Below, one piece after another: positions 5,601 through 41,006 of a DNA stretch of 64,000 nucleotides. A model generated the notes under the pieces. It saw only the letters and a list, made by a program, of their open reading frames with translations. It was not told where the DNA came from and ran no database searches. The translations under genes and the position numbers were made by a program. How positions within the stretch are numbered: position 1 is the first letter of the stretch; each line of letters opens with the position of its first letter. The DNA is from Pyropia yezoensis (taxonomy: Eukaryota; Rhodophyta; Bangiophyceae; Bangiales; Bangiaceae), in assembly GCA_009829735.1 (NCBI GenBank), contig CM020619.1:11647777-11711776 (forward strand), read 5' to 3'.

Positions 5601-6631
5601 GGGGCGTTGGGAAGTCGCAGGCCGAGCTGTGCGACGTGTTCAAGAAGGCGCACCCCTCTGCGTCAGGCAACCACGAGGTGACCGGCACGTGCGCGCCGTC
5701 TCTGCCCCAGTGCCGGCCGGAGCCGTTCTTGTGGGAGGAGGTATTATCAACTGGCATGTGCTCGAAGCATTATGCCAAGGCCCACAAGTTCTCGCCAGGC
5801 GCCATGACGTTTTGCTGCGGCTGCAAGCACCCCCTCATCTTGGCTTTTACCGTGTTGGACCGCAAGGAGGCTCCCCAAGTGCTGCTCAACATGCTCCTCA
5901 CGAGGTTTGCGCGCTTGCCTCGGTTCCTGATCTACGACTTCTCTTGCGGGGCGTTTCGAGTGGCGCTGGGGAAGATCGGCTGGCTGCTGATGGACTGCAC
6001 CATCGTGTCCGACCGGTTCCACATTTTCAACCACCTCTGCTCCGACGCGTTCGACCCCCGCTCCTACACGGCGCTGGACGGCGTGGACTCGGGGGCTCCT
6101 GAGCAGCGCAATGCGCCCATTCGGCGGATCCAAACGACGCTGCAGGGCATGGGCGTTGCGCCGTACACCAACTTACTCGCCTACCAGACGGGATTGCTCA
6201 ACCACGAGGCGCAGACCAAGTGGGACCTCGGGGTGGAACGGCTGCCGGAGGACGTTGACTTGGCCGGGGCGTACTTCTCGAAGTACGCGTGCTTGTGCTG
6301 CGACGGGGACGACGACCGTTCATCGGACGACTCGTCCGCAAGCCGTGAGGTGTCTGAAGGGGAGGGGCAGTCTGGTGATGAGTCTGGATCGTCATCTTCG
6401 CAGCATGAGCCCAGTGCCGATGCCACGGGGGCGGAGGGTGGGGAGGGTGAGACAGTTGAGGCGTGTGTGGCTCGTGAGGGGGATGCGGATGGTGCGGACG
6501 ATGAAGAAGACCGGGGCAGTGGTGACAGCGCATCTCCGCTGTCCGAGGATGTTGATGCTGTATCCTTGCCGGACAGCACGTCCAGTGATGGCGGTGTGAG
6601 CGTGAGCGGGGACGACTCGTTTGATGAGTAA
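2687..6631 (+). CDS. KDZ-type DNA transposase with SWIM-like zinc finger
   Basis: Predicted cut-and-paste transposase of the Kyakuja-Dileera-Zisupton group, 1314 residues. I chose the first ATG (2687); the frame is open a little upstream but without another ATG. Residues 248-270 hold CxC...CxH (CTC and CRH), a SWIM-type zinc site. A multi-cysteine region follows (CLYC, SRGFC, KCSSC, about 4000-4110). The catalytic part has FCCGCKHP, then IYDFSCGAF with Asp about residue 1084, then SDRFHIFNHLC with Asp about 1109, and DGVDSGAPEQRN. This is the family layout 'YDfxC...DxFHxxxHxxC...DGxxxE'. The C-terminus (from about 6300) is an acidic Ser/Asp/Glu tail. The whole gene is one open frame, so it may be recent. 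No terminal inverted repeats or target duplication were found. Codon use is less GC-extreme than in the gene before it. Confidence 0.7.
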   Translation: MDLGSSSSSGSSLDGSPVITVSTPSTAAPAASSGCAPSVLNYADISMDVDDGFLAMTHGSSPLDVGLAANTGGVEDAVDDGGGAGGADDGVAGVEGADVADAGGAGVAVAGEADVGHPPRGQVPPAGKRRLMYGQNRPGPKHGGGGRRKGSGRQTRTNFGRGARRAIGSYLCETSAEALSSACGIPMAAGERTVKMLHEWSTLPGSEEVWLVPGVFGVVARWGEWRRDSQGKSASVCVWLGSDGLSRCTCIGATSHHDNHVLERRTTCRHAGIFDALLGDIASALGAPADKVRQQFVKRVQQEREADGDDQLAAHGSTFHVLSGLYVAVCPSAIGVVPVPVYLTSTRSSCSFCLGARTRCCSLLAVAQECGAPNRAHHASAQSSTRSLEVSAVSRLPLPLHNCIAAVRLNGEVSALAAAGGVFSVPAPSRCLYCTSRGEEHELSNPSTREGVMVCSRGFCKTEVVVSKCSSCKQWVSRDGRDQHIILLTTTTAATVCWARSMASSAADGMALTTSTTRWLRAVRRGMVAGVLPQDCPTRSGRILRNIVLVALKLMVEQLPSALFSCHHCMDADGRYLCVSAASIWVGFGSGVEHVTFQHVTEAVPENRQAVRAAYLVRGESVRRVIRDVMNPCKDFKLLARTTRPAEIAVSLLLPEALPSTRILEATAAEEAIAKLLSSVYDMEKAGRKLLVALKGALATYKTRNRAEGERRSAAARHLSAYIDAKRPMTTPAPSGPTTPAEHPPRGAADGGTAPSRRHATTPTPVGLVRNDAVPVKSAGASNFPGRAKLLLVVRPANVASHGWAAKKRKPDCGRKAFNAGKGDVDTTSPFLRSHIKELDKDSRRELLSFVTAITIDSVVLPFRPCHAAVLRTLAEDLLRPDHPTVMAGALALATSGEQLSAADKTPTVELLRDLRFMHLGVPSCVSLFPKVVELNGALAGVLVRISESIDKFVLEWRNGPEQTRKYQESWGGVGKSQAELCDVFKKAHPSASGNHEVTGTCAPSLPQCRPEPFLWEEVLSTGMCSKHYAKAHKFSPGAMTFCCGCKHPLILAFTVLDRKEAPQVLLNMLLTRFARLPRFLIYDFSCGAFRVALGKIGWLLMDCTIVSDRFHIFNHLCSDAFDPRSYTALDGVDSGAPEQRNAPIRRIQTTLQGMGVAPYTNLLAYQTGLLNHEAQTKWDLGVERLPEDVDLAGAYFSKYACLCCDGDDDRSSDDSSASREVSEGEGQSGDESGSSSSQHEPSADATGAEGGEGETVEACVAREGDADGADDEEDRGSGDSASPLSEDVDAVSLPDSTSSDGGVSVSGDDSFDE

Positions 6632-8339
6632 AGTATGATACCCCCGACGCCCTCAAAGCCATGAGTCAGCTTCAGCGCCGACCGCGGCGCACCAGAATCA
6701 CGCAAGGGAACGCATCAACCATCACCCTCATCGACAGGGCCGGGACCCGCCCACACCGTCCACGTCGGCAAAAAAAGTAAATCAGCACCATATTGAGCAT
6801 CACGCGACGGCACGACCGCTACGGGAGGGGGCACGGAATCACCACCGCGACCGCCATTAGCGGCGGCACGGCACAGCCAAGACCACCGCCATCAGTAGTG
6901 TTGACGTCTGCCACAATCACCGCCATAAGCTGAGACACGGCCCGGCCACCACGATAGCCGTAGCCGGTGGCACGCCCCAACTGCCACGAACACCATCGGC
7001 GTGGGAGCGGCCCCTACCACCACGACGGTCATCGGCGGAAGCGGCGCCCGGACAGCATAACCGCTGCAGACGGGGGCACATCCCCGCGGCCATCACCGTC
7101 GTTGGTGGCGGCCTACGCCACCACCACCACCTCCGTCGGTGGGAGACCGGGCGGACCTACACGACCGGCATCCGCGCGAGTACGGCCCAGGGACCACCAC
7201 CACAAACTTCAGAGGGGACCACGGCCGCCATCACGACCGCGGCCGCGGCGGTGGACACGGTGATCGTCGCCGCGACCGCCACCGCTGGGGGGGGTGCCGC
7301 TGGTAGCCTCCCACAGCCACCGGCGTCACTTCCGCCTTTGCCGGCAACGCCACCGCCGTCGCCGCCACCGCCGCCGCCGCCGCAGCCGCCGTCGCCGTCG
7401 CCGCGCCGCCGCCGCCGCCGCCGCCGCCGCCTCCGCAGTCGCCGCCGTCACCACCGTCATGGCGGCTGGCCCTAGCGGCGGCCATCCCCCAGCAGCACGG
7501 CTGCCGCGGCCAGCACTACCATTGTCCGCAACCCGCGCAGGAGGGCGCCTGGTTTGGCAACCCCTGCGCGCGGCGCCCACCGCAATGGCCGCCCGCCCAC
7601 GCCAGCGGCCCCCCCACAAACAGCCCCATGGGCGGGGAATCGGCCCCGACACGACGTCCGCCATGGGCGGGGGCACAGCTCCGCCGCCACCGTCGTCGTT
7701 GGGTGGTACGCCCCGCGACCAGCACCGCCACCGGTGCGCAGACGCGACAGCAGCAGAAAGCACCATCGTCAGGGGCTCACCCCATGACTGTTGCCGCCGT
7801 CTGTTGGAGCGCGGCCGAGGGCACGCAGCGTCGTCAACGGGAGACCGCCCGCATCACTCCTGCCATACCCGGCTGCGGCGAGCCGGCGCAATAGGCAAGT
7901 GGGCACGCAACGACAAAGAAGGTCGTCAAGCCCGCCGTTGGGCAGGGGTAAACGACCATCGGAGGGGTGCTAGAGCGCTGGATCAAGGCGTGGATTTTTG
8001 CAAAATGTGGCCACGTGCGACCTTTACATAAACATTGTGTAGAAATATATAGGTTTCAACGGGTACTTTCGCGTTGGGGTTTGAGTGTTGCTTCAACAGC
8101 GAAGCATCATTGGTCAACTTCCACATCATGAGATTTCCAATTGCCTTTTTGCTCCTGAGTTTTATGTTTTCTATGTAACGTATTCTCATTTTCTCCACGG
8201 CCGCCACGACTGCAGCACTCGTACATCCCGCTGCGACGTCCTTGTGCTCCGCCGTCCCCGTCCGCAGTCATCATTGCGCGGGGCACAACGGTTGCATTCT
8301 CAGCAGCGTGACTTCGGCCGGCATGCATGGCTGTCCCGC
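6632..8339. other. Intergenic DNA, no supported gene
   Basis: No frame here looks like a protein. The first 150 bases are an ordinary 3' flank, 6836-7330 is an old degenerate repeat (listed separately), and 7340-7470 is dominated by CCG/CGC triplets that open several frames at once. Bases 7990-8190 form an island clearly richer in A/T than its surroundings, just outside the satellite; it could hold a promoter or a matrix-attachment-like sequence, but I see no specific motif. Confidence 0.5.
6836..7330 (+). repeat. Degenerate ~35-bp tandem repeat
   Basis: About a dozen units of 31-42 bp can be cut by eye, each starting near A(C/T)CACC, with a middle like GCCATCGGCGG and an end like CACGGCCCGGCC (for example units starting near 6880, 6914, 6949 and 6987). 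Units are strongly diverged and vary in length, so this is an old array. Continuation to about 7780 is possible but weaker. Confidence 0.45.
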
Positions 8340-10554
8340 GTTTGGCGGCGGCGGCGGTGGCGACGGCGGTGCGGCAGACGGGGGTGGAGCTAGCGGCGGC
8401 AACGGCTGAGCGGCCGCGGGGGGGGGGGGAACGGGCGACGACGGCCAGCGGATGGCGGCTCTCGGCAGCAACGGTGGAGCGGCCGCGGGGGGGGGATGGA
8501 TGGGCGACGACGGCCGGTGGCTGGCGGCTCGCGGTGGGAATGGTGGAGCTCTGGCGGGGGGGGGGAACGGGCGACGACAGCTGGCTGCTGGCGGCTTGCG
8601 GCGGCAACGGTGGAGCGGCGGCGGGGGGGGGGGGGGACGTGCGACGGCGGCCAGTGGCTGGCGGCTCTCGGCGGCAACGGTGGAGTGGCGGTGAAGGGGG
8701 GGGAGAGGGGCGATGACGACCGGCGGCTGGCGGCTCTCGGCGGCAACGGTGGAGCGGCCGCGGGGGGGGGGGACAGGCGACGACAGCTGGCTGCTGGCGG
8801 CTTGCGGCGCCGACGATGGAGCGGCGGCGGGGGGGGGGGGGACGGGCGACGGCGGCCAGCGGCTGGCGGCTTGCGGCGCCAACGATGGAGCGGCGGCGGG
8901 GGGGGGGGGGGACGGGTGACGGCGGCCAGCGGCTGGCGGCTCTCGGCGGCAACGGTGGAGTGGCGGTGAAGGGGGGGGAGAGGGGCGATGACGACCGGCG
9001 GCTGGCGGCTCTCGGCGGCAACGGTGAAGCGGCCGCGGGGGGGGGATGGATGGGCGACCACGGCCGGTGGCTGGCGGCTCGCGGTGGGAATGGTGGAGCT
9101 CTGGCGGGGGGGGGGGGACGGGCGACGACAGCTGGCTGCTGGCGGCTTGCGGCGCCGACGATGGAGCGGCGGCGGGGGGGGGGGGACGGGCGACGGCGGC
9201 CAGCGGCTGGCGGCTTGCGGCGCCAACGATGGAGCGGCGGCGGGGGGGGGGGGGGGACGGGTGACGGCGGCCAGCGGCTGGCGGCTATCGGCGGCAACGG
9301 TGGAGTGGCGGTGAAGGGGGGGGAGAGGGGCGATGACGACCGGCGGCTGGCGGCTCTCGGCGGCAACGGTGGAGCGGCCGCGGGGGGAGGATGGATGGGC
9401 GACGACGGCCGGTGGCTGGCGGCTCGCGGTGGGAATGGTGGAGCTCTGGCGGGGGGGGGGGGACGGGCGACGACAGCTGGCTGCTGGCGGCTTGCGGCGC
9501 CGACGATGGAGCGGCGGCGGGGGGGGGGGGGGACGGGCGACGGCGGCCGGCGGCTGGCGGTTCTCGGCGGCAACGGTGGAGTGGCGGTGAAGGGGGGGGA
9601 GAGGGGCGATGACGACCGGCGGCTGGCGGCTCTCGGCGGCAACGGTGGAGCGGTCGCGGGGGGGGATGGATGGGCGACCGCGGCCGGTGGCTGGCGGCTC
9701 GCGGTGGGAATGGTGGAGCTGTGCGGGGGGGGGGGGACGGGCGACGACAGCTGGCTGCTGGCGGCTTGCGGCGCCGACGATGGAGCGGCGGCGGGGGGGG
9801 GGGGGACGGGAGACCGCGGCCAGCGGCTGGCGGCTTGCGGCGCCAACGATGGAGCGGCGGCGGGGGGGGGGGGGGACGGGTGACGGCGGCCAGCGGCTGG
9901 CGGCTCTCGGCGGCAACGGTGGAGTGGCGGTGAAGGGGGGGGGAGAGGGGCGATGACGACCGGCGGCTGGCGGCTCTCGGCGGCAACGGTGGAGCGGTCG
10001 CGGGGGGGGGATGGATGGGCGACCGCGGCCGGTGGCTGGCGGCTCGCGGTGGGAATGGTGGAGCTCTGGCGGGGGGGGGGGGGACGGGCGACGACAGCTG
10101 GCTGCTGGCCGCTTGCGGCGCCGACGATGGAGCGGCGGCGGGGGGGGGGGGGACGGGAGACCGCGGCCAGCGGCTGGCGGCTTGCGGCGCCAACGATGGA
10201 GCGGCGGCGGGGGGGGGGGGGGACGGGTGACGGCGGCCAGCGGCTGGCGGCTCTCGGCGGCAACGGTGGAGTGGCGGTGAAGGGGGGGGAGAGGGGCGAT
10301 GACGACCGGCGGCTGGCGGCTCTCGGCGGCAACGGTGGAGCGGCCGCGGGGGGGGATGGATGGGCGACCACGGCCGGTGGCTGGCGGCTCGCGGTGGGAA
10401 TGGTGGAGCTCTGGCGGGGGGGGGGGGACGGGCGACGACAGCTGGCTGCTGGCCGCTTGCGGCGCCGACGATGGAGCGGCGGCGAGGGGGGGGGGGGACG
10501 GGCGACGGCGGCCAGCGGCTGGGCGGCTTGCGGCGCCAACGATGGAGCGGCGGC
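8340..10554 (+). repeat. G-rich satellite, left block (about 31 monomers)
   Basis: Tandem ~69-bp monomers, each ending in a run of 7-13 G. Five monomer types follow one another in order and form a higher-order unit of about 344 bp. One landmark (GGCGATGACGACCGG) recurs with ATGs at 8713, 8988, 9333, 9609, 9953 and 10299, that is, steps of 344-346 bp (five monomers) and 275-276 bp (four monomers). The left edge (8340-8455) is degenerate, as at the margins of arrays homogenised from the inside. The block runs into the assembly gap. The minus strand is stop-free over long stretches because the monomers lack stops; I do not call these coding. Confidence 0.95.
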
Positions 10555-11054
10555 NNNNNNNNNNNNNNNNNNNNNNNNNNNNNNNNNNNNNNNNNNNNNN
10601 NNNNNNNNNNNNNNNNNNNNNNNNNNNNNNNNNNNNNNNNNNNNNNNNNNNNNNNNNNNNNNNNNNNNNNNNNNNNNNNNNNNNNNNNNNNNNNNNNNNN
10701 NNNNNNNNNNNNNNNNNNNNNNNNNNNNNNNNNNNNNNNNNNNNNNNNNNNNNNNNNNNNNNNNNNNNNNNNNNNNNNNNNNNNNNNNNNNNNNNNNNNN
10801 NNNNNNNNNNNNNNNNNNNNNNNNNNNNNNNNNNNNNNNNNNNNNNNNNNNNNNNNNNNNNNNNNNNNNNNNNNNNNNNNNNNNNNNNNNNNNNNNNNNN
10901 NNNNNNNNNNNNNNNNNNNNNNNNNNNNNNNNNNNNNNNNNNNNNNNNNNNNNNNNNNNNNNNNNNNNNNNNNNNNNNNNNNNNNNNNNNNNNNNNNNNN
11001 NNNNNNNNNNNNNNNNNNNNNNNNNNNNNNNNNNNNNNNNNNNNNNNNNNNNNN
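10555..11054. other. Assembly gap (500 N)
   Basis: Exactly 500 N, which looks like a placeholder of unknown true size. The satellite ends at its left edge and the interior of Ty3/gypsy element E1 begins at its right edge, so the missing sequence should contain E1's 3' LTR and polypurine tract plus more satellite. Confidence 0.95.
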
Positions 11055-11060
11055 GAGGAG

Positions 11061-13449
11061 ATGGAGGACGACGCGCCTGTCGGTCCGACGCCGCGCGTTA
11101 CGGGGTGAGCTCGTCTGACGACGACGGGCCTGCGGTGTCCGTCCGTCTGTCGGCCGGAGGACTGTCGTCCGTGTGCAGCGGCACGACGGTGCCGTCGCCG
11201 GAGGTCAACCCGGCGGTCAACCGCGCGTGGCGGCTTCTACCCCCTCTCTGCCGGCTGCCCGGATGGAGCCTGGTGCCGGTGCCGGCTCACCGCAGGTACC
11301 TCAAGATGGTCCGCCCTGCGGCGGAGGTCGCGACCCGCAGCCGACTCCGGCTGGTCAAGGTGGTCCGGGTGTCCGGGCGGTGACTCCTCGAGGCGGTCCG
11401 ACGTTGACGCGGGTGGTGGTGGCGGTGCGACACCCGGTGGCGGCGGGTCAAGACGGTGCGGGTGTCCGCACGGCCGGGGCTCCGGCTCCGGAGGCTGTCC
11501 AAGTGCCTTCCCCTTCCGAGGCGGGGCTACGCCGACGGGTGGTGCCGGCGCCGGTGCCGTACCTGCGGTGCCGCGGGCGTCGAGCGGTCAAGACGCTCCT
11601 TCTCCCATGGCGGTTGACACCGGGAGTTACTCCGGGCGGGCGCCCGCCCTTCTTCTTCCTCCTCGGCCTCGTCCATCTCCGACGTCGGCCCCCTCTGCCG
11701 GTGGTGCGTCCCCCGGCGCCCCCGATTCTTCCTGGTCCTGCCCGGGTTGCCCCGTTGGGTGGCGGCGTCGCCGTGGCGGCGGGTCAACCCGCCATGTCGG
11801 TGTCCGACTTGGTGGCTCGGGTTCGAGGCCTCACGGTGCAAGAGTCGATGGAGTCCGATGGGCGTATGCGGGTGGACTTCCACCTGGTGCATCCCCGTGG
11901 AGAATCCTCCCGGCGCGTCAAGGTGGACCCGTGCTGGGAGCGGGAGTTGGTGCGGCTGGTCAACCAGCCGAACGCGGTCCGGTGGAACACCATTGGATCC
12001 TGAGTCAGCCGGACGACCGGCCATGCGCAGCTCTGGCGCACCCGGGTGGGACGGGGTGAGGTCTACCTCGACCCTAACTTCGGGGTCTGCGACCTGATTG
12101 CCCCCGCGTTGCCGCGGGAGATTGACTACCCGGCTAGTGCTCGGGGGATTGCGGCGGCGGCGGAGCCGGTTGCGTTTGGGGAGACGGTGAGCCGTACCGG
12201 TCGGTATCCCGACTTTGACTACTACCCGGGGTACCCCCGTATCTGTCGTTGACGCCCCCTACCCGCCCATGGCGGGGTTGAAGTCGCGTCGAGTTGGCGA
12301 CGTAACCATGGTGTCATGGCGGATGCGTTCCGCACGGATATAACGTGTGCGTTGCAGACCGGCAACGGTCGTGCTCCGGTATACACTCCCGTGCGCCCGC
12401 CGCTATGGCAGGAGGGGTGGGAACCCGCCCCTGCTTTCCGGTTTGACACCGGCTCCTGCCTCCGATACTTCGGGAGTGTGTTGGCCTCCCGGCCGGTCCA
12501 CCCGTTGCAGGGTACCTTCACCCTTGAGGTTACCCTCGGGCAGGCTTCATCCTTCTTGCTGTCCGTCCGCCGGCAGGGTCGTCTGTTTCATCTTCCGACG
12601 GGTGTCCGTCGGCACATCGCGCAGTTGGGCGTGGATCTGATAGCCGCCAAGACCGGGTTGGCCCGGGAGTTCGAAGCCCTGCTGGCTGTTCACGATGCCG
12701 TGAACTGGGCTGGGGTGTTGGCCCTTCCCCCGTACCGGGACCCGCAGGCTGGGGCTTCCCCCTTGCCTCGTCACTCGTTGCGTGTCCGGCGTACTCAGCC
12801 GGGTGAGCCTAGTTGCCATGGGTGGGCGTCCACCGAGGCCGTTCCTGACCTGGGTATTCCCATGGTTATCCATGACCCTCTTCAGGTCCTTGCCCTGTGG
12901 TTCGGTAACCCGATACCGGCGGCGGTTGGCCGTCGTCCCCGAGAGTGGGGCTCTGTGGGTGGGGAGCGTGAGGTGTCCCGTCGTCGGGCGGAGTACCGCC
13001 GTGGTTACGGTGGAGCCCCTTCGGTAGGGTCCTACCGGGCCTCGTATCAGGTGCCACCGGCTCCGGTGGTAGCCGTGTCGGCTCCTGTGGGTCCTCTGGC
13101 TGCGCCAGTGTCACCTCCCGCCCCTGTCCTACATGACGGGGGTCCCCGTCTCTGGTATGAAGGCGTTGACGCCCTTGTTACCCGCGCAATGCGTGGGGGT
13201 CTCTCTGTTAGCTGGGGGGATATCCCCCCAGGTGCTGCGCTGGTTGGGTCAGCGCGTTGCTTCGGTGGCGTGCTGGACCGCCTCCAGAAAGCTCTGGAGG
13301 ACGTGGAGGCTGGCCGCAGCACCCTCGTCCAGCTATGCACCGAGGTAACTCGGGTGGTCGACCGTCGTGACATTGCCGACCGGTGGAGCACGGAAGTATA
13401 CGCGCTTACGCGTGAGTGGCCTCCCTCGGGCAGTGGGTCTACCCACTGA
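11061..13449 (+). pseudogene. Antisense accessory gene of E1, interrupted
   Basis: This gene runs opposite to gag-pol, between pol's 3' end and the missing 3' LTR. It resembles the E2 gene at 32924-34798: E1 SVRRQGRLFHLP matches E2 SCVQRRGMLWHLP. Both are preceded by an LEV-type strand and followed about 35 residues later by a (V/L)H-x3-5-W motif. The start MEDDAPVG (ATG 11061) resembles E2's MEDTSYGA. The frame used from about 11263 to 13449 contains two in-frame TGA codons, at 12001 and 12250, and the first 200 bases are frameshifted against the rest. The clean part, from ATG 12316 to 13449, encodes 377 residues without membrane segments or recognisable enzyme motifs. I do not know its function. 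It is not envelope-like, since no signal peptide or transmembrane helix is seen. Confidence 0.6.
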
Positions 13450-13930
13450 GGAGTGCTATTTGTTTGTGAGGGAGAGGGTCCCGGCAACCCTTATGGTAGC
13501 CGGGTAGTAGTGAGTATAAACTCATCCCCCGCTGGGGGCATTGCTTGCCTCTGTTTGCTGCCCTGGGGAGTACCCCTTCTGGCTCAGTGGTGCCTTGCCT
13601 CCCGCCCAACTTCTTCCGGTTGGTTCATGCTTGGGGAGGTTATCCTCCCTCACTTTGTGTCTTGGCTTGGGGAGGTCATCCTCCCGTGTAAGCTCCCTAG
13701 TTACTTCGATATTATCGGAGTTAGCCTTTACCTTTAAGTTAACTTATTAAGGTTCAGGTTTTTACTTAGTTACCTAAGCTTAGCTCTACTTAGTTACCTA
13801 AGCTTGGTTCGACTTAGAAACCTAAGTCTGATTTGACTTAGAAACCTAAGTCTGCCGTAACCATGTCACACCCTACTTAGTAGGTATAAGCCTCACCCCC
13901 CAACAGCCGAAGTCGGTGTCGGTTGGGTTG
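13450..13930. promoter_or_regulatory. Spacer with hairpin cluster between convergent genes of E1
   Basis: The opposite-strand gene and pol converge here, 481 bp apart. Two GGGAGG-N4-CCTCCC hairpins lie at 13634-13649 and 13670-13685. Four hairpins CTTAG-N4-CTAAG recur with an exact 24-bp period at 13765, 13789, 13813 and 13837; the last two have 6-bp stems (ACTTAG AAAC CTAAGT). A further CCTAC-TTA-GTAGG stands near 13872. The region is AT-richer than the genes. A role in 3'-end formation for both transcripts is an inference from position. Confidence 0.55.
13765..13860. repeat. Four 24-bp repeats, each a hairpin
   Basis: Exact 24-bp period; each unit contains CTTAG, a 4-nt loop (TTAC twice, AAAC twice) and CTAAG. 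The two loop variants occur as adjacent pairs, which suggests stepwise duplication with selection for pairing. Confidence 0.85.
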
Positions 13931-16900
13931 TTACAGTAGGCGTCGTCGCCTCATGTAAGGCATGAGTAGTTGGCGGGGTATATTCGCCGCCTGTTCCCAG
14001 GTGGGTGAGTCGTATCCGACCCACATAACCTTGACGTACCAGGGTCCTGGTATGTCCGGGTCGGTGTGTCCGACCACGCTCTCTACTTGGTATGGAATCC
14101 CATCCGGTCCCACCGGGTCATCCGACCGGTGGGTTGTAAGAGCTTCATGTAGCAACCCAGCCGGTACCGGCTGAGGCTGTTCCGGCTTCGGAGCAGGTGT
14201 GACATCATTCATACTGATGCGTTGGATCTCCGTATCGGAGTGTAAGATAACAGAGTGGTCATCTCTGTGGAGGATCTGGTACGGTCCCTTGACCGGTTGC
14301 ATAAGCTTGTTCCCTCGGAACTTCTGGTGTCTGATATAGACCCAGTCACCTGTTACCAGGGTTGCGTTTCGCACCCGTAGTCGGGCGTCGAAGTTCTTCT
14401 TGTATCGAAGTTGTGTTCTGTCAAGGGCACCCTTGAGCTTAGGAATCATCCACGATAGCTTGGCCAACCAAGCTAGGTGGATGCGTTCGGCGGGTCGGCC
14501 CTTCGGTGTATCATACCGAGTGCACCTGCCTGGCGGCAGCGTCAGGTTACCGACGCCTAGTGGCATGACCCATTCCAGTGGGGCGATGTTGGTACTCCGA
14601 TGTGGCCTGGCATTGTATGCCAGGGTGAGTACGGACAGAAGCCTGTCCCAAGTGTTCGTGTGCTCTGCCACGTAGCACTGTAGCATCTTGACGATGGTGC
14701 GGTTGAACCGCTCCACCTGCCCGTTGGACTGCGGGTGGTAGTCGGATGCCCGACGTGGTTCGATACCGAACATGCCCAGGACCTTTGTGCAGAATGCCGA
14801 CGTAAGGTTTGCTCCGTTATCGGAGAGGAGTTGCTTCATGACTCCGTATGCACTGATCCAGTGGTCAACCACTGCGTTCATAATCGTGTATGCCGTATCA
14901 TTCGGGATGGCTGCCGCTCGTGACAGCTTGGTGAATCGGTCAGACATGACCAGGATGTACCTGTTCCCTTCTTCCGTTACCGGAAGTGGCCCGAGTATGT
15001 CGATAGCGACTTGCTCGTTGGGCCCATCGGGTGGGAATAGCTTCATGGCAGACGCCTGCCTATGTAGACTCATGCGGTTACGCGCACAGGGGTGGCATCC
15101 CCTTACGTGGTCGACCACGTCGACGGCCATTGCTGGCCAGTAGAAGAACCTTCGCATTGCTGCGAACATACGTGAACCCCCCGGGTGTCCGGCTGTAGGG
15201 TTCTCATGTTCTCGTTCCATGACGGCTTGCCGTAAGGACACGGGAACCACGACTTGATGTCGTCCATCGGCGGGTGCCCGCCGGAATATGAGTCCGTCTT
15301 CGTTCTCGGAGAAGATGCCGGCCGTACCGGCCAGGAGGTTAGCACGATGACGTCTACAGTCATCGTCGTTGGCCTGTGCCTCGCGGAAGTCCGCGAGGGT
15401 CAATGGGCACGCAAAGTGTGCCATGGTATGGTCAGCCATACCCTGGGTAGCATTACCCACCATGCACACCGGTACTACCGGGATGTCCTCGTCCACCGGG
15501 CGGGTATCCCCGCTCGGGGTGTCGAGTCGAGACAACGCGTCTCCGAGGTGGTGGGTTGACCCAGCCTTATACACCGTGCGGTAGTCGTGCTCGGCCATCT
15601 TCAACCTCCATCGGGCTAGCCTCCCATGGCTATCGGAATCCTTGTCACCAAGGTTGAGGAGCCATCGTAGGGGTTCGTGGTCGGACCTCACGATGAACCT
15701 GGAGCCCTCCAGGTATGGACGGAGCAGTTGCACTGCCCATATAACTCCGAGGCATTCACGCTCGGTGGCACTATAGTTCCGCTCAGCCGGGTTGAGTGTC
15801 CGGCTGAAGTACCCTACCGGACGTAGGTCCGGGATAACGTTATCGGTACCGATCAACGTCTCTCCCTGTAACAGGGTGCATCCCACTTGTGTATCACACG
15901 CATCGACATCGATGACGAAGGTACCCCGTCTATGCGGTAACGCAAGGACGGGTGGGGCTAGTAGGGCTCGCTTCAGCGACTCGAATGCCTCCTCTTCGCT
16001 AGGCGAAGGGGGTTGGAGTACCTTGGGTAAGGTACTGCTCGTAAGAACCGTTAACGGTTTAGCTATCCGAGCGAAGTCCTTGACGAACCGTCGGTATACA
16101 TTGCACATTCCCAGGAAGCTCTTGAGCTGCGTCTGGGTGTTAGGGAACCGGGCATCCCGGAGTGCCCGGGTATTGGCTTCGAGTACCCCTAGTTTACCAG
16201 GGGTTATCTGGTGGCCCAGATATTTGACCGTCTGTTGGAAGAAGGCGCACTTCTTCAGACGCAGGGTTACCCCGGCGTTCCTCAAGAGGGTGAGTACCTC
16301 GTCAACATGTTGTACATGGTCATCCATGGTACGCGAGAAGACGATGACGTCATCGAGGTACACTAGGCAGTTACGCCACTTCACCCCCGACAGTATGATG
16401 TCGATAGCCCGCTGGAATGTAGCGGGGGCGTTGGACAATCCGAAGGGCATCCTTAGGAACTCGTACACTCCACTGTGACAGACGAATGCCGTCTTGGGGA
16501 TATCCTCGTCCGCCACCGGGATCTGCCAGTATCCGGCATTGCAGTCGATGGTGGTAAACACCGTAGCCTCCCCCAGGGAGTCGATGCATTCATCCATCCT
16601 TGGTAAAGGGTATGAGTCCTTCTTGGTAACCAAGTTGAGGCGTCGGTAATCGATGCAAAACCGAGGGGTTTGATCCTTCTTCGGCACAATAACGACTGGG
16701 GCACCCCATTCCGACATCGAAGGTCGGATCACCTTAGCTTCACTCATCCTCTTCACTTCTCCATCAACGATCTCTCGTTGCATAGGTCCCGCTCGGTGCG
16801 GTTGTGAGCGGGCGGGTCGTGCGCCTGGTACCAGGTCTATACGATGTTGGGTTGCCCCAATGGTCCCCAAGGCCCCGCCTGTCCACATAACGTCATGCTT

Positions 16901-18097
16901 TCTTAGCATCCGTCGTACCCCTTCGGCTACCGAAGGGGGAAGGTGGTCGAGGTCAGCCTCGGCCAGTGCCTTCAAGGCCTCTTGGTCCTTTGGCGGCAGG
17001 TCCGCCGGAGCCGCTGATGGGTTAGGCTTCCCGTCATCGGGTTGCTGTCGCTCGGTGGTCTCGGCGACCGCCAGTACTTCAAGTGGTTCCACTTGACCTT
17101 CCTTATCAGGGGTAAGGATATCTCCTTCGTAGAGTTCGGCAATCCCGAGGATAGTTCCCTTCGGGAGGGTGACTGCCTTACGGCGGTAGTTCGCCATCAC
17201 TAGGAGGGACGACCCTCCTGCTGGGAGGTCTATGAGACCGTTGGCCATGGTCAACCCATGGCGCTTGTACGTCCGTAGGTTGGACTGGACTCTGCAGATG
17301 CCTGCGAGGTCGCAGGTAACCGGGAGGACTGTCTCTGACAACGGCTCAAAGCGAGTTCGCTTGGCCAACCGAAGTGTCTTCGGCTCGACGCTTGCGTACA
17401 CCTCAGCCACGTTAACGTGGCTTCCTTGTAGCGTCAGGTCCCTGACGATAGCCGTGTGTCCTCGCTTCGTCCCGTCGGCTTCTTGAAGCTCGACGGTCCT
17501 CCGGCCTGGCCGGATTGCATCAACGTGAACGTTGATGAAGGTGCACCCCAGTATGCAGGGCACCGATAGCGTTTCACATACCAGGAAGTCAACTTCCGTG
17601 GTGAGATCCCCGATGGTAACCTGCAGCGACATCGCTGCGGTCGTACGAATGAGTCGACCATTCGCGTCCTTGATGGTGGGTCCCCGAGTCACTCTGACTC
17701 GTGGAAGCCACTTGTCCGGGAGGGTATCCTTCCGGATAAGGTTGGGTCCAGCCCCTGTGTCCAGTACAGGGTAGTACGATCGTGTCGACTGGGGGTCAAC
17801 CCCCAGTGTGGCTGATACCTTGAAGTTCTCCAAGGTAAACAACACATGTCCTACACCGATATCCGGTGTAGCTCGGGCATCCTGAACAGGGCCCTTGTCT
17901 GGTTCAACGTGACGGGGCTTCCCGTCCTCTCCTCCCAACCTTGGAGGTTGGTCATCAATCCCCTGACGCCGTGTCGTCGGGGCCGGAAGGTGTACCCGGG
18001 GGTTGATGCGGCGTCGGCTCAACCGCGCTCTCCGTGGGGCTTTCCCCGCGGTACTCCGGGGTGGCTTGCTTGGGTGACCCCAGCGCCCCCCGGTCAT
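13931..18097 (-). CDS. E1 Pol: protease, reverse transcriptase, RNase H, integrase, chromodomain-like tail
   Basis: Polyprotein of 1388 residues that copies element RNA into DNA and inserts it. The aspartic protease site is DTGAG at 113-117. The reverse transcriptase has its first Asp at about 518 (TTIDCNAGYW) and YLDD at 580-583. RNase H follows (FVIDVDACD). The integrase has an H-H-C-C zinc site (ending CHPCARN), then Asp 1033 (AIDILGPL), Asp 1093 (LSDNGAN) and Glu 1129 (NGQVERFN), the expected D,D(35)E spacing. The C-terminus (GPWYVKVMWVGYDSPTWEQ) resembles a chromodomain, so E1 is a chromovirus-type element. The ATG at 18097 lies 8 nt after the gag stop. No stops or frameshifts interrupt it, so it is potentially active. 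The coding sequence is packed with short hairpins (see findings). Confidence 0.95.
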   Translation of the reverse strand: MTGGRWGHPSKPPRSTAGKAPRRARLSRRRINPRVHLPAPTTRRQGIDDQPPRLGGEDGKPRHVEPDKGPVQDARATPDIGVGHVLFTLENFKVSATLGVDPQSTRSYYPVLDTGAGPNLIRKDTLPDKWLPRVRVTRGPTIKDANGRLIRTTAAMSLQVTIGDLTTEVDFLVCETLSVPCILGCTFINVHVDAIRPGRRTVELQEADGTKRGHTAIVRDLTLQGSHVNVAEVYASVEPKTLRLAKRTRFEPLSETVLPVTCDLAGICRVQSNLRTYKRHGLTMANGLIDLPAGGSSLLVMANYRRKAVTLPKGTILGIAELYEGDILTPDKEGQVEPLEVLAVAETTERQQPDDGKPNPSAAPADLPPKDQEALKALAEADLDHLPPSVAEGVRRMLRKHDVMWTGGALGTIGATQHRIDLVPGARPARSQPHRAGPMQREIVDGEVKRMSEAKVIRPSMSEWGAPVVIVPKKDQTPRFCIDYRRLNLVTKKDSYPLPRMDECIDSLGEATVFTTIDCNAGYWQIPVADEDIPKTAFVCHSGVYEFLRMPFGLSNAPATFQRAIDIILSGVKWRNCLVYLDDVIVFSRTMDDHVQHVDEVLTLLRNAGVTLRLKKCAFFQQTVKYLGHQITPGKLGVLEANTRALRDARFPNTQTQLKSFLGMCNVYRRFVKDFARIAKPLTVLTSSTLPKVLQPPSPSEEEAFESLKRALLAPPVLALPHRRGTFVIDVDACDTQVGCTLLQGETLIGTDNVIPDLRPVGYFSRTLNPAERNYSATERECLGVIWAVQLLRPYLEGSRFIVRSDHEPLRWLLNLGDKDSDSHGRLARWRLKMAEHDYRTVYKAGSTHHLGDALSRLDTPSGDTRPVDEDIPVVPVCMVGNATQGMADHTMAHFACPLTLADFREAQANDDDCRRHRANLLAGTAGIFSENEDGLIFRRAPADGRHQVVVPVSLRQAVMEREHENPTAGHPGGSRMFAAMRRFFYWPAMAVDVVDHVRGCHPCARNRMSLHRQASAMKLFPPDGPNEQVAIDILGPLPVTEEGNRYILVMSDRFTKLSRAAAIPNDTAYTIMNAVVDHWISAYGVMKQLLSDNGANLTSAFCTKVLGMFGIEPRRASDYHPQSNGQVERFNRTIVKMLQCYVAEHTNTWDRLLSVLTLAYNARPHRSTNIAPLEWVMPLGVGNLTLPPGRCTRYDTPKGRPAERIHLAWLAKLSWMIPKLKGALDRTQLRYKKNFDARLRVRNATLVTGDWVYIRHQKFRGNKLMQPVKGPYQILHRDDHSVILHSDTEIQRISMNDVTPAPKPEQPQPVPAGLLHEALTTHRSDDPVGPDGIPYQVESVVGHTDPDIPGPWYVKVMWVGYDSPTWEQAANIPRQLLMPYMRRRRLL

Positions 18098-18105
18098 CCT
18101 TCCTC

Positions 18106-20289
18106 TTACTCGTTTCCCGCCCTTGGTAGGGTGCTGTCCGCCGGGACATCCGGCTGAGGAGGTGCCCCCTCGACGGCCAGTACTCCACCTGGAGCTGGCT
18201 GCCTACCCGGTGCGGGTCCGGGTGCTCGGGCGGGATACCCCCCGGTGGATGCCTTGCGTTGCGCCGCTGCCCGCCGAGACTCCTCGGGGATGAGTGGGCA
18301 GGAAGACACCCAGTGCTGGGGATCCCCACACAACATACATCCGGACGTGCCGGTCCCCCCTTGAGGTCGCATCGGGGTAGCCCCGTAGCTACGGTTGCCT
18401 CCCTCGGGCGCCCGAGTGCCTGCTCCCTGGTAGGCCTTGGGTCCTTGGGTCAACCGGAACATGGACTCCCCCAACCGGTTGGGACGGCCCGCAATCTGCG
18501 GGGGTGCCTCCGTGCGCACCGCCCATGTTGGCAAGGGTTGGTGAGGGTTACCCGTCACCGGGGAGTACCCCGTAGTCCGCACATACGGGACGCGCCGTCC
18601 CGTTCCTTCGTTGACCTGGAACTGGGTTCCAGCCGGGGCGATGTACGCTACCGTACCATGTTCATCAATCACCGGCGTCGCCGGTAGCAACAGGTGGCCC
18701 TGTTGGTCGACTAGAGGGTCACCCTCACCAATAGGGGTATGTTCGGTCGCCACCAGTACTGGTGCGGCCTTACGTTCCACCTTATCTTGCCTCGGTACCG
18801 GGGTAAGACTGGGCTTGCCTCCCTCACCCTTGGGCTTCGGGGCCAAGGCACACTCCGGGTGTAGAACCCGGTAGGCGTCCCCTAGGGACTTGCACATATG
18901 CATCAGTCGACTGAAGTTCGTCCGTGCCGTGTTGGCGCCCCGTGCGGATATCCGCACGTAGTTGGGTACTCCTGCGAACAGGATGGCCCGTAGCTCCCCT
19001 TCTCCGAGGAGCTTCCCCAGCTCGTAGTCGAGCTCTTGGATCCGGCGTCCAAACATCTCCTCATCCTCCCAGGACTGGGCGGTGGCAGTGCGAAGGGCCC
19101 GATAGTGGTCCTCGCACTTGTCCTCACTGAGGTAGCTGCTCAGCAGCTCCTTCAATATCCCACGGTAATCCATGGGGGTGGCCGCGACCCTCATTCCCGG
19201 CATCGGGGATGCCTGGCGAAGAATGCCTCGCACCCGTTCATCAACAAAGAACGGGAGGATCTCCAGAGCCAGCCCCTCGTTAACGAGCGCCTTGTCTGCG
19301 GCTGCCTTGAAGCTAGTCAAGAAGCCGATGACTGCCAACGGGCGTCCGTTCGGCCCCCCGAACATAGGGACTCCCTTCATAAGGGTCTGCATAGAGCGGA
19401 TCGCCCGATGCGACGTATTACGCATCGATTCCGATACGGTGGTAGAGCGGTCCTCCAAACGATAACGTTCCGGAGTACGAACCGACCGGAAGACCTCGTT
19501 GACGATCTCCGTGTCAGCGTCCTGGATATCCAGTCGCTTAGCCAGTTGATGAGCGAACTCATCGGACTCCATCCGCTTCAGTAGGCTCGCAGTTACCTGC
19601 GCGGTCATAGCTTCCACCACTGAAGATGGTACTTCAGGCGTCGGCACCTCGGGAACCCGAGTTGCCGGGCCTCCTTCGTCGTGGGGGTACTGCGAGAGGG
19701 TACCCCCTCCCCCAATAACCGACTCTCTCCCGGCGTACGTATCTGCCGGGTCGTGTCCGCGGAGTCCGCTTCGGGTGCTCCGAGCGTATTGCTCCGTGTG
19801 ACTCCGTTCCAACTCTGCCGACGAGTCGGATCCATACCCCACTGTGTCCGGGGGTTGTCCAGGAGTAGCAACACCGGGGTTGACCCTGGTGGACTCCGAA
19901 AGTAGTCCGGCCGGTTCGAACCGTACCGGTGTGGGAGGAACACGACGGGGTCCCGTCGTGTGCCGTGTTGACATCAACACTGCCATTGCGTCCTCCGTCC
20001 GATCTTGACGGGCGTCGAGCCCGGAAAACCGGGCCTCGATGCGGGCCAATGATGCCATCAGGGAATCCCCTGGTGAAGGAGGCGGCGGAGTGAGGTCGGT
20101 CGACGACAGTTGAGGCGGGCCCCCGCCTCCTGCCGTCCGAGCCGTGCCAAACGTCGATCCGGCACCGGAAAGCATTGGCGTCTCAATGTTATCGATCGGG
20201 TTCCCGATCCCGGTTCCCGTAGTCACCTCCGGGGTCGGCGTCGACGCCGATCCGTCATCTTGAACGTTCCCCGTCTCTTGGGTAGACAT
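18106..20289 (-). CDS. E1 Gag (capsid/nucleocapsid)
   Basis: Structural protein of 727 residues forming the cytoplasmic particle. I start at the ATG at 20289; a GTG two codons earlier is not needed. The N-terminal third is Ser/Pro/Gly/Thr-rich. The middle (about 19600-18900) is helical and capsid-like. A single zinc knuckle CX2CX4HX4C (CMLCGDPQHWVSSC) lies near 18310-18350 and would bind RNA. The protein ends AGNE-stop, the same end as E2 Gag. The stop TAA (18106-18108) is followed by GAGGAAGG and then pol's ATG, so Pol may be made by termination-reinitiation, not by a fusion. Confidence 0.9.
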   Translation of the reverse strand: MSTQETGNVQDDGSASTPTPEVTTGTGIGNPIDNIETPMLSGAGSTFGTARTAGGGGPPQLSSTDLTPPPPSPGDSLMASLARIEARFSGLDARQDRTEDAMAVLMSTRHTTGPRRVPPTPVRFEPAGLLSESTRVNPGVATPGQPPDTVGYGSDSSAELERSHTEQYARSTRSGLRGHDPADTYAGRESVIGGGGTLSQYPHDEGGPATRVPEVPTPEVPSSVVEAMTAQVTASLLKRMESDEFAHQLAKRLDIQDADTEIVNEVFRSVRTPERYRLEDRSTTVSESMRNTSHRAIRSMQTLMKGVPMFGGPNGRPLAVIGFLTSFKAAADKALVNEGLALEILPFFVDERVRGILRQASPMPGMRVAATPMDYRGILKELLSSYLSEDKCEDHYRALRTATAQSWEDEEMFGRRIQELDYELGKLLGEGELRAILFAGVPNYVRISARGANTARTNFSRLMHMCKSLGDAYRVLHPECALAPKPKGEGGKPSLTPVPRQDKVERKAAPVLVATEHTPIGEGDPLVDQQGHLLLPATPVIDEHGTVAYIAPAGTQFQVNEGTGRRVPYVRTTGYSPVTGNPHQPLPTWAVRTEAPPQIAGRPNRLGESMFRLTQGPKAYQGAGTRAPEGGNRSYGATPMRPQGGTGTSGCMLCGDPQHWVSSCPLIPEESRRAAAQRKASTGGYPARAPGPAPGRQPAPGGVLAVEGAPPQPDVPADSTLPRAGNE

Positions 20290-20495
20290 GGTCACAATCA
20301 GTCAACCGACGTATCAATCACCACGAACAAGAGAGCGAGGGGGTAGATTGGGGAGAGTACAGTAGATCACAGTCAAAGGTAAAAACTCAACACAATCGAT
20401 CAGGTCGCAACACCACGAGTACAAGAAAAGGACCGGATCCCTATCCGTGTGCCAGGGCCGAAGACGGCGTCACCACAAGGGTGACGGAAACCCGT

Positions 20496-20512
20496 CCCCT
20501 GCTGCTCCACCA
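20496..20512 (-). promoter_or_regulatory. E1 primer-binding site
   Basis: Read on the minus strand, TGGTGGAGCAGCAGGGG begins one base inside the 5' LTR. TGG pairs with a tRNA 3' CCA; the tRNA would have an acceptor strand starting GGAGCAG. I cannot name the tRNA. E2 has the identical sequence. Confidence 0.75.
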
Positions 20513-20513
20513 A

Positions 20514-20878
20514 TGTAGCACAATAGGAATCCGTCGCACGTCCACTCTCAGGGAACACTCACCAAGGGGGATCGGCACCAACGTCACCGGGAGGCCAAGG
20601 TTGCTGTCCTTGGAGCGCAAGCCACGGGACCAAGATGGGAGCCCAAATGGGAGGGGTTTGTTGTTCTACCTTGGCCGGCGGTGGATTCGCCACCGGCCCC
20701 CTCGTTATAAACCCTCGGAGACACTACTAACTACCCTCCACCCCAAGATGCAAGTCCCTCTGGTCATACGTAACTTATAGATACCGTGACCAGTACGAAC
20801 TATCAAATTGAAAATTAAGGGTTAGAAGTAGCCCCCCCCTAATATTAGGGTCACAATACGGTCAACCATATTGCTACA
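20514..20878 (-). repeat. E1 5' LTR (365 bp)
   Basis: The LTR starts TGTAGCA and ends TGCTACA on the plus strand, a perfect 7-bp inverted end with TG/CA. The primer-binding site abuts its inner edge and the satellite its outer edge. Read on the minus strand, a TATA-like TTTATAA near 20704-20711 lies about 170 bp downstream of the LTR start, a reasonable place for the U3 promoter. The partner LTR is in the gap. Confidence 0.85.
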
Positions 20879-23800
20879 GCGGCTCGCGGTGGGAATGGTG
20901 GAGCTCTGGCGGGGGGGGGGGACGAGCGACGACAGCTGGCTGCTGGCGGCTTGCGGCGCCGACGATGGAGCGGCGGCGGGGGGGGGGGGACGGGCGACGG
21001 CGGCCAGCGGCTGGCGGCTTGCGGCGCCAACGATGGAGCGGCGGCGGGGGGGGGGGGGGACGGGTGACGGCGGCCAGCGGCTGGCGGCTCTCGGCGGCAA
21101 CGGTGGAGTGGCGGTGAAGGGGGGAGAGAGGGGCGATGACGACCGGCGGCTGGCGGCTCTCGGCGGCAACGGTGGAGCGGCCGCGGGGCGGGGATGGATG
21201 GGCGACCACGGCCGGTGGCTGGCGGCTCGCGGTGGGAATGGTGGAGCTCTGGCGGGGAAGGGGGGACGGGCGACGACAGCTGGCTGCTGGCCGCTTGCGG
21301 CGCCGACGATGGAGCGGCGGCGGGGGGGGGGGGACGGGCGACGGCGGCCAGCGGCTGGCGGCTTGCGGCGCCAACGATGGAGCGGCGGCCGGGGGGGGGG
21401 GGGACGAATGACGGCGGGCAGCGGCTGGCGGCTCTCGGCGGCAACGGTGGAGTGGCGGCGAAGGGGGGGCAGAGGGGCGATGACGACCGGCGGCTGGCGG
21501 CTCTCGGCGGCAACGGTGGAGCGGCCGCGGGGGGGGGATGGATGGGCGACCACGGCCGGTGGCTGGCGGCTCGCGGTGGGAATGGTGGAGCTCTGGCGGG
21601 GGGGGGGGACGGGCGACGACAGCTGGCTGCTGGCGGCTTGCGGCGCCGACGATGGAGCGGCGGCGGGGGGGGGGGGGGACGGGCGACGGCGGCCAGCGGC
21701 TGGCGGTTCTCGGCGGCAACGGTGGAGTGGCGGTGAAGGGGGGGGAGAGGGGCGATGACGACCGGCGGCTGGCGGCTCTCGGCGGCAACGGTGGAGCGGC
21801 CGCGGGGGGGGGATGGATGGGCGACCACGGCCGGTGGCTGGCGGCTCGCGGTGGGAATGGTGGAGCTCTGGCGGGGGGGGGGGGACGGGCGACGACAGCT
21901 GGCTGCTGGCGGCTTGCGGCGCCGACGATGGAGCGGCGGCGGGGGGGGGGGGGACGGGCGACGGCGGCCAGCGGCTGGCGGCTTGCGGCGCCAACGATGG
22001 AGCGGCGGCGGGGGGGGGGGGGGACGGGTGACGGCGGCCAGCGGCTGGCGGCTCTCGGCGGCAACGGTGGAGTGGCGGTGAAGGGGGGGGAGAGGGGCGA
22101 TGACGACCGGCGGCTGGCGGCTCTCGGCGGCAACGGTGGAGCGGCCGCGGGGGGGGGATGGATGGGCGACGACGGCCGGTGGCTGGCGGCTCGCGGTGGG
22201 AATGGTGGAGCTCTGGCGGGGGGGGGGGACGGGCGACGACAGCTGGCTGCTGGCGGCTTGCGGCGCCGACGATGGAGCGGCGGCGGGGGGGGGGGGGACG
22301 GGCGACGGCGGCCAGCGGCTGGCGGCTTGCGGCGCCAACGATGGAGCGGTGGCCGGGGGGGGGGGGGACGAATGACGGCGGCCAGCGGCTGGCGGCTCTC
22401 GGCGGCAACGGTGGAGTGGCGGTGAAGGGGGGGGAGAGGGGCGATGACGACCGGCGGCTGGCGGCTCTCGGCGGCAACGGTGGAGCGGCCGCGGAGGGGG
22501 ATGGATGGGCGACGACGGCCGGTGGCTGGCGGCTCGCGGTGAAAATGGTGGAGCTCTGGCGGGGGGGGGGGATGGGCGACGACAGCTGGCTGCTGGCGGC
22601 TCGCGGCGCCGACGATGGAGCGGCGGCGGGGGGGGGGGGGACGGGCGACGGCGGCCAGCGGCTGGCGGCTCTCGGCGGCAACGGTGGAGTGGCGGTGAAG
22701 GGGGGGGAGAGGGGCGATGACGACCGGCGGCTGGCGGCTCTCGGCGGCAACGGTGAAGCGGCCGCGGGGGGGGATGGATGGGCGACGACGGCCGGTGGCT
22801 GGCGGCTCGCGGTGGGAATGGTGGAGCTCTGGCGGGGGGGGGGGACGGGCGACGACAGCTGGCTGCTGGCGGCTTGCGGCGCCGACGATGGAGCGGCGGC
22901 GGGGGGGGGGGGACGGGCGACGGCGGCCAGCGGCTGGCGGCTTGCGGCGCCAACGATGGAGCGGCGGCGGGGGGGGGAGGACGGGCGACGGCGGCCAGCG
23001 GCTGGCGGCTTGCGGCGCCAACGATGGAGCGGCGGCGAGGGGGGGGGGGGACGGGTGACGGCGGCCAGCGGCTGGCGGCTCTCGGCGGCAACGGTGGAGT
23101 GGCGGTGAAGGGGGGGGAGAGGGGCGATGACGACCGGCGGCTGGCGGCTCTCGGCGGCAACGGTGGAGCGGCCGCGGGGGGGGGATGGATGGGCGACCAC
23201 GGCCGGTGGCTGGCGGCTCGCGGTGGGAATGGTGGAGCTCTGGCGGGGGGGGGGGGACGGGCGACGACAGCTGGCTGCTGGCCGCTTGCGGCGCCGACGA
23301 TGGAGCGGCGGCGGGGGGGGGGGGACGGGCGACGGCGGCCAGCGGCTGGCGGCTTGCGGCGGCAACGGTGGAGCGGCGGCGGGGGGGGGGGGGACGGGCG
23401 ACGGCGGCCAGCGGCTGGCGGTTCTCGGCGGCAACGGTGGAGTGGCGGTGAAGGGGGGGGAGAGGGGCGATGACGACCGGCGGCTGGCGGCTCTCGGCGG
23501 CAACGGTGGAGCGGCCGCGGGGGGGGATGGATGGGCGACGACGGCCGGTGGCTGGCGGCTCGCGGTGGGAATGGTGGAGCTCTGGCGGGGGGGGGGGGAC
23601 GGGCGACGACAGCTGGCTGCTGGCGGCTTGCGGCGCCGACGATGGAGCGGCGGCGGGGGGGGGGGGACGGGCGACGGCGGCCGCGGCTGGCGGCTTGCGG
23701 CGCCAACGATGGAGCGGCGGCGGGGGGGGGGGGGACTGGTGACGGCGGCCAGCGGCTGGCGGCTCTCGGCGGCAACGGTGGAGTGGCGGTGAAGGGGGGG

Positions 23801-23991
23801 AGAGGGGCGATGACGACCGGCGGCTGGCGGCTCTCGGCGGCAACGGTGGAGCGGCCGCGGGGGGGGATGAATGGGCGACCACGGCCGGTGGCTGGCGGCT
23901 CGCGGTGGGAATGGTGGAGCTCTGGCGGGGGGGGGGGACGGGCGACGACAGCTGGCTGCTGGCGGCTTGCGGGCCGACGATGGAGCGGCGG

Positions 23992-24048
<57 letters not shown>

Positions 24049-40906: not shown

Positions 40907-41006
40907 GTTGGCAGACGATCCGTATGCCACGGTCCAAGTCCACCGTTCCTCTGAGACAGAGGGCCCCCTACACCCGGGTGCACCCGGAGGTAAAGTTTAC
41001 CTCTGT

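Follow-up and report, generated by a model that had tools for sequence, protein, structure and literature searches.

Family-specific perfect hairpins dispersed through Ty3/gypsy retrotransposons of Pyropia yezoensis

Hepatitis B virus, like long terminal repeat (LTR) retrotransposons, replicates via reverse transcription. In this virus and in RNA viruses, dispersed packaging signals have been described (PMC7612645; PMC3593212; PMC7793301), i.e., many short stem-loops that occur genome-wide and carry a loop motif such as -RGAG- (PMC7612645). Perfect inverted repeats have also been described in the conserved protein genes of Nematomorpha mitochondria, where they cost synonymous sites (PMC6649704), and perfect short inverted repeats result from quasipalindrome template switching, a replication-associated mutation in E. 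coli (PMC7202029). In this study, we analyzed a 64,000-nt stretch of Pyropia yezoensis DNA (hereafter the window; positions 11,647,777 to 11,711,776 of contig CM020619.1, assembly GCA_009829735.1), in which E1, a Ty3/gypsy LTR retrotransposon (11055-20878, minus strand), carries short perfect hairpins in numbers far above expectation. We tentatively propose that at least five Ty3/gypsy families write such hairpins by selection at synonymous sites, with loop size and centre differing from family to family except that the related A and F share a centre. A factor encoded by the element may read these hairpins, either as DNA or on both strands, which would make them a private self-marking code.

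Like the packaging signals, the hairpins described here are many short stem-loops, with a loop motif that varies from clear to weak between families; unlike those signals, they reject G.U pairs, have their motif in both orientations in two families, belong to LTR retrotransposons and are not known to bind a capsid protein. Like the nematomorph palindromes, they sit within conserved protein-coding genes, where synonymous sites pay for them. The nematomorph repeats, however, reach 284 bp and have arms that evolve in concert (PMC6649704), whereas the arms found here are 6-10 bp long, the loops are family-specific and the E1 stems are conserved, not converted. In contrast to what quasipalindrome template switching would leave, paired changes are nearly absent among the E1 copies. 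The plant Retand LTR retrotransposons are, like E1, gypsy elements with an antisense open reading frame (ORF) between pol and the 3' LTR; most of their antisense ORFs carry TRP28 (PMC11963269), whereas those of E1, A and F have no significant Pfam match. The main text of the Retand paper (PMC11963269) does not mention the word hairpin. Among the papers listed in literature searches, judged by titles and the openings of abstracts and in a coverage to which most subscription journals do not belong, none described such a system for LTR retrotransposons.

Hairpins were defined as perfect stems of at least 6 bp with loops of 0 to 5 nt, and non-overlapping ones were counted. The original prediction, which held that the E1 coding sequence is rich in such hairpins, had proposed a comparison with shuffled sequences; this was made with 1000 codon-preserving shuffles per set, which keep the protein and its codon usage, and with 1000 dinucleotide-preserving shuffles, and the observed counts lay far outside both distributions. 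In 17079-17951, 17 hairpins were found, compared to a mean of 2.23 (maximum 9) after codon shuffling and 1.26 (maximum 6) after dinucleotide shuffling. The whole E1 pol ORF (13931-18097, minus strand) had 52 hairpin centres and 50 non-overlapping hairpins, compared to 7.36 ± 2.57 (maximum 16) and 5.68 ± 2.37 (maximum 14), respectively. Hairpins were also more numerous than expected in E1 gag (29 vs. 6.0 in 300 codon shuffles), the untranslated region (UTR) at 13450-13930 (6 vs. 0.5), the antisense-ORF region at 12316-13449 (8 vs. 2.0) and the 3' region as a whole (11055-13449, 3.7-4.0 times expectation), so that the excess ran throughout E1, from the LTR and 5' region over gag, pol and UTR to the 3' region, at 3.7 to 11 times. 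The excess in E1 is thus confirmed as real, and it is broader than originally described: it holds in pol, but coding sequence is not its limit, for it extends to gag, the UTR, the 3' region and other families. It wanes past loops of about 9 nt. Host-like stretches of the window (3001-7300, 28100-31500 and 53000-56500) had hairpins at only 1.1-1.5 times expectation, and 48000-53000, which contains a family A fragment, at 2.0 times. An Rfam search of 11055-20900 gave no match at gathering scores, and a peptide-pattern search of viral contigs returned no relatives.

The feature is restricted to certain families. A pattern for reverse transcriptase (RT) motifs matched 2087 places in the genome surveyed (107.5 Mb in 11 contigs), and the first 30 loci along the genome, taken as 3-kb pieces without Ns, were grouped by BLAST into four families, A, B, D, and F. 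Hairpins occurred at 2.7-5.1 times expectation in family A (18 loci), 5.0 times in family D (2 loci) and 2.8 times in family F (1 locus), whereas 9 of 9 loci of family B were at 0.7-1.1 times, i.e., without excess, although family B was slightly uneven in its perfect 7-bp stems (5 vs. 2.5 expected). The window holds two further gypsy elements on its minus strand, E2 of family A (34979-40930) and E3 (41425-47500). E3 is also enriched in hairpins, and four gypsy families besides E1 (i.e., A, D, E3, and F) therefore carry the excess. The hairpin-bearing families have roughly one perfect hairpin per 100-200 nt, protein genes included. Where they can be aligned, families A and F share about 67% of their sequence. 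As the G+C content of family B is like that of family A, neither composition nor a genome-wide process accounts for the difference between them; composition or a genome-wide mutation bias is further rejected because the host-like stretches show little excess.

In a further point absent from the original description, loop size and, in several families, also the central bases typify a family or a pair of related families. Loop lengths peaked at 0, 2, and 4 nt in E1 (63 of 89 hairpins with even loops), at 4 nt in D, at 3 and 1 nt in E3, at 5 and 7 nt plus 1 and 3 nt in A, where the loops of E2 are mostly odd, and at 5 and 7 nt in F. The words found at the centre of symmetry were TA and TG/CA in E1, TA (its own complement) in D, TAA/TAG in E3 and ACT/AGT in both A, including E2, and F, and in 18 of the 27 sites of family F the centre AGT was followed by C. 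Near-perfect stems at these centres numbered 53 in E1, 35 in D, 15 in E3, 22 in A and 27 in F, compared to 8.9, 1.7, 1.1, 1.1, and 1.1 expected, ratios that are inflated because the motifs were picked from the same sequences. The arms of F, A, D, and E3 had no strong consensus. Motif orientation leaned towards the sense strand in E3 (TAA/TAG, 13:2 of 15) and in E1 (TG over CA, 23:11), while AGT and ACT occurred at 12:10 in A and 15:12 in F, and not in the sense-only orientation expected of signals in a packaged RNA.

The pairing rule is Watson-Crick, with G.U treated as a mismatch, and is mostly strand-symmetric. Among 7-bp stems in E1 pol, perfect ones were enriched 25 times, those with one internal G.U 2.9 times, those with one A.C 3.7 times and those with other mismatches 1.8-2.6 times, and in no set of this comparison were G.U stems more enriched than A.C stems. 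Summed over five rows, motif-centred sites had 42 G.U and 53 A.C; among the rows without motif, D leaned towards G.U (10 vs. 2), and E1 and E3 leaned towards A.C (15 vs. 5 and 7 vs. 2, respectively).

Stems, but not loops, are constrained among the E1 copies. Nine copies of the E1 subfamily (L052-L055, L057-L060, and L081; 3.7-5.5% divergent) were compared with the window; for L055 and L060, the comparison was limited to their aligned parts. Changes present in two or more copies were regarded as inherited, and those in a single copy as probably mostly post-insertion. Inherited changes at third codon positions affected 12 of 235 positions in stems and 172 of 1111 outside them [odds ratio (OR) 0.29, p 5.6e-6], as well as 7 of 42 in loops, i.e., they were three times rarer in stems, without depletion in loops. 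This bears out the earlier suggestion that synonymous positions are adjusted to favor pairing. The same was found at fourfold sites (9 of 141 in stems vs. 104 of 601 outside), and pairwise counts for L052-L055 concurred, while single-copy third-position changes gave an OR of 0.70 (p 0.15) in stems. Inherited changes were not depleted in control stems shifted by -40, -25, +25, or +40 nt. In E1 gag, a comparison with one copy gave the same direction with few events (third positions, 5 of 86 in stems vs. 44 of 431 outside). In a 4.3-kb stretch, the window and seven subfamily copies that cover it completely, at 3.7-4.8% divergence from the window, keep 47-55 hairpins each. Six near-identical E1 copies (99%) showed no depletion of changes in stems, as would follow if the few changes they carry are recent; since the hairpin class used in that comparison (present in half of the copies or more) is biased against stem variants, the later tests use single reference copies.

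Family A was compared over 15 copies, 4 of which served as reference, with 4 of the 18 loci omitted (L015, L032, L033, and L038, which contain Ns or are more diverged). Shared variants in stems had ORs of 0.11-0.66 across the four reference copies, and loops were more variable than the rest. The pattern of E1 thus recurs here in weaker form, its strength hinging on the copy taken as reference. The second copy of family F is 99.9% identical across the 3.5 kb aligned and thus uninformative on constraint, and family B has too few hairpins to serve as a control for it. Taken as a signature of purifying selection in E1, the depletion of inherited changes in stems makes it probable that the hairpins are maintained by selection.

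The explanation that we favor, as one that is quite possible but by no means established, is that the hairpins serve the retrotransposon as dispersed cis-acting sites, maintained by selection and read by a protein of the element. Each site would have a footprint of about 20 nt, in which a perfect Watson-Crick stem of arbitrary sequence presents a short loop typical of the family. On the simplest reading, the putative reader would be an element-encoded protein that binds nucleic acid, either Gag or the product of the antisense ORF. It would bind many hairpins along the element, be it on cDNA in single-stranded form or on transcripts of both strands. Such binding may package, condense or protect the nucleic acid of the element, as a retrotransposon counterpart of the dispersed packaging signals. 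We infer that a protein reads the sites, and likewise which protein, on which strand and at which step.

The two candidate readers were followed across the families. A CCHC zinc-knuckle pattern is present in E1, F, B, and L051. Several gypsy families have homologous antisense ORFs in the interval from pol to the 3' LTR (28% between E1 and A, 34% between A and F, and 25% between F and B); these were found at 12316-13449 (E1), 33197-34798, and 51670-52770 of the window, all on the plus strand, at L049:5694-8000 (minus strand) and, for family B, at 8393-8821 of L050 and L083. The retrieved part of family D yielded no significant homologue. The antisense ORF of family A had a single relative, 95% identical, among 5.8 billion proteins. 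The zinc knuckle was rejected as a mark of hairpin families, as the gag of family B has one and the frames of A, E3, and D gave none; the antisense ORF was likewise rejected as a factor exclusive to them, given the homologue in B (25%, E 3e-5).

Several observations weigh against the reading of the hairpins as selected, protein-read sites. The gag of family B has a zinc knuckle and the family an antisense-ORF homologue, yet it is without hairpins, and a scan of the A, E3, and D frames gave no zinc-knuckle pattern. The loop motif stands out clearly in F, A, and D, is fair in E3 and is weak in E1, and its occurrence in both orientations in A and F is unexpected if the sites are read on sense RNA. 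The spacing of the hairpins was indistinguishable from random, with no regular period. At fourfold sites of E1, single-copy changes were also fewer in stems (OR 0.52, p 0.05), and the control stems shifted by +25 nt had mildly fewer third-position changes of all kinds (OR 0.70, p 0.04). With the window copy as reference, constraint in family A was not significant (p 0.35 for loops of up to 5 nt and 0.075 for loops of up to 9 nt). Compared with the 85%-identical L056, stems of family A were no better conserved than the rest (30 of 201 vs. 401 of 2762 changed). L056 itself is hairpin-poor (8 vs. 6.4 expected), and the lack of conservation of the A stems against it suggests that hairpins come and go over longer time scales.

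Hairpin-templated mutation, which had also been put forward originally, would produce functionless stems: during reverse transcription, the nascent strand would snap back at family-specific pause motifs and one arm would be copied from the other (quasipalindrome correction). Such copying would leave arms that are arbitrary and strictly Watson-Crick, as found here, with the drop from 25 times enrichment for perfect stems to 1.8-3.7 times for one mismatch in E1 pol; centres and loops that differ between families could stem from different reverse transcriptases, and the non-coding parts of the elements are affected too. Visual comparison of family A with L056, where the stems are otherwise unconserved, also showed two paired double changes, and conversion of this kind has been proposed for the coding palindromes of nematomorphs (PMC6649704). 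Conversion should, however, make about half of the stem mutations paired doubles. Among the 36 E1 pol stem pairs that join two third positions, 9 single and 0 double changes were found, whereas about 3-6 doubles are predicted (an estimate from the shared rate of 172/1111 outside stems), and all E1 stem pairs compared yielded one double Watson-Crick change. The comparison of copies for compensatory changes, as originally suggested, thus gave a divided result, in that E1 stems are conserved from copy to copy, yet few double compensatory changes occur. In addition, the excess of 7-bp stems with one mismatch (about 43) is similar to that of perfect ones (39; our own sum), as in a tug-of-war, and the sister family B of the same genome is without the feature. 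The near-lack of double changes in E1 and the hairpin-free sister family weaken this explanation, which we regard as rather unlikely, though it deserves to be kept in mind.

Selection for RNA structure was another of the original suggestions, next to a possible role in small-RNA defence or evasion. Genome-scale ordered RNA structure is the name of the phenomenon in which folding as such is selected; here, selection might also act on the folding of both sense and antisense transcripts, e.g., preventing their annealing to silencing-prone double-stranded RNA. The lowered folding energy of that phenomenon was found: per 100 nt, energies fell below those of dinucleotide shuffles in five families, with mean z from -1.2 to -2.7, whereas B showed no such lowering. 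The antisense ORFs suggest antisense transcripts, and a need for both strands to fold would account for the rejection of G.U. In genome-scale ordered RNA structure, however, G.U counts as a pair, whereas it was not favored over A.C in the 7-bp stems here, and changes in E1 stems yielded A.C and G.U at 23:11, the opposite of what sense-RNA folding predicts. Folding was lowered equally on the sense and antisense strands. Family-specific loop sizes and centre motifs are left unexplained by folding, and family B has an antisense ORF yet no hairpins. With G.U no better than A.C, strands that fold alike and motifs in both orientations in A and F, selection for RNA folding, on one strand or both, is weakened to an unlikely explanation.

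It is highly improbable that the hairpins serve as landing pads for self-targeted integration, with the loop as the target duplication. A symmetric centre with a family motif would suit such a role, and by eye 2 of 10 E1 insertions examined sit in other E1 copies. The 5-bp target duplication of E1, however, implies an odd axis, whereas most E1 hairpins are even (63/89); target sites were not perfect palindromes, and both nested insertions lie off hairpin centres (by eye, few insertions). Landing-pad integration is thus unsupported for E1. Finally, although the original expectation was a rough estimate, chance, base composition, codon bias or assembly artefact can be ruled out, as 0 of 1000 codon-preserving and 0 of 1000 dinucleotide-preserving shuffles reached the observed count and copies at separate genome places retain the number of hairpins.

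If the hairpins are read by a protein of the element, a retrotransposon would mark its own nucleic acid as self along its full length, and differences in the size and motif of the loop may keep families separate. As the signal lies in silent positions, it could be removed by synonymous recoding without change to the protein. If the hairpins instead stem from a copying error made by certain reverse transcriptases, snap-back synthesis would have left an unusually strong trace in them. In both cases, a single genome with hairpin-bearing and hairpin-free families offers a ready comparison.

The domain order, LTRs and short target duplication identify E1 as a Ty3/gypsy LTR retrotransposon, delimited by copy alignments and by flanks that diverge past 20878; copies L041 (11055-20878), L047 (12655-20879), and L045 (11055-19140) are 98.8-98.9% identical. 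On the minus strand, the 5' LTR (TGTAGCA...TGCTACA) occupies 20514-20878, an end common to copies with different flanks, and the same two ends occur about 363 nt apart elsewhere. A probable primer binding site (TGG...), recognized by reading the sequence, lies 1 nt past the LTR at 20496-20512. The gag ORF (18106-20295) includes the CCHC zinc knuckle, and the pol ORF has Pfam matches in the gypsy order protease, RT, RNase H, and integrase, the protease slightly under threshold (25.2 bits vs. a cut-off of 28.2). The antisense ORF (12316-13449, plus strand) has homologues in families A and F and, via these, weakly in B. A 500-N gap (10555-11054) masks the 3' LTR along with about 0.6 kb. Paired E1 LTR starts, with ends TG...CA, are present elsewhere in the genome. 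Target duplications of 5 bp (GCAAC, CGGTG, and CGTAG) were exact in 3 of 10 insertions, and 1 further had a mismatch; in the remaining 6, an end was not found or was masked, element sequence lay downstream or no clear duplication was seen.

All 15 hairpins originally listed in 17079-17951 are present, two of them beginning 1-2 nt earlier at full length (17405-17422 and 17432-17447), and two more (17244-17262 and 17911-17926) bring the total to 17. All on the minus strand, and with stem length in bp and loop length in nt given in brackets as stem/loop, they are 17079-17096 (8/2), 17202-17219 (7/4), 17244-17262 (7/5), 17301-17316 (7/2), 17349-17362 (6/2), 17369-17383 (6/3), 17405-17422 (9/0), 17432-17447 (7/2), 17500-17514 (7/1), 17518-17537 (9/2), 17584-17597 (6/2), 17623-17638 (7/2), 17685-17701 (7/3), 17788-17807 (9/2), 17851-17871 (8/5), 17911-17926 (6/4), and 17935-17951 (7/3).

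A 2-kb piece of E1 pol had 1288 candidate places in the genome, of which 40, the window's own included, were scored, all at 99-100%, and the first 16 letters of the E1 LTR occurred exactly 1374 times. E1 LTR ends also recurred at constant distances, about 880, 1227, and 2028 bp apart, in apparent tandem arrays of LTR-bearing units (G000, C1:807795-819798, C1:1497766-1507603, C1:833903-837974, and C1:1581223-1585296). Large arrays of a 69-bp G-rich minisatellite with long open frames flank E1 at 8389-10554, next to the N gap, and 20879-26881, and E1 appears to have inserted within such an array. A further gypsy integrase ORF, located at 26311-28086 (plus strand), includes both a chromodomain and a Tf2-1-like SH3 domain. 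L051:1-2000, beside an RT family without clear excess, had 19 hairpins with loops of 0-5 nt, mostly 0 and 4, compared to about 2.8 expected, and is possibly another hairpin-bearing element.

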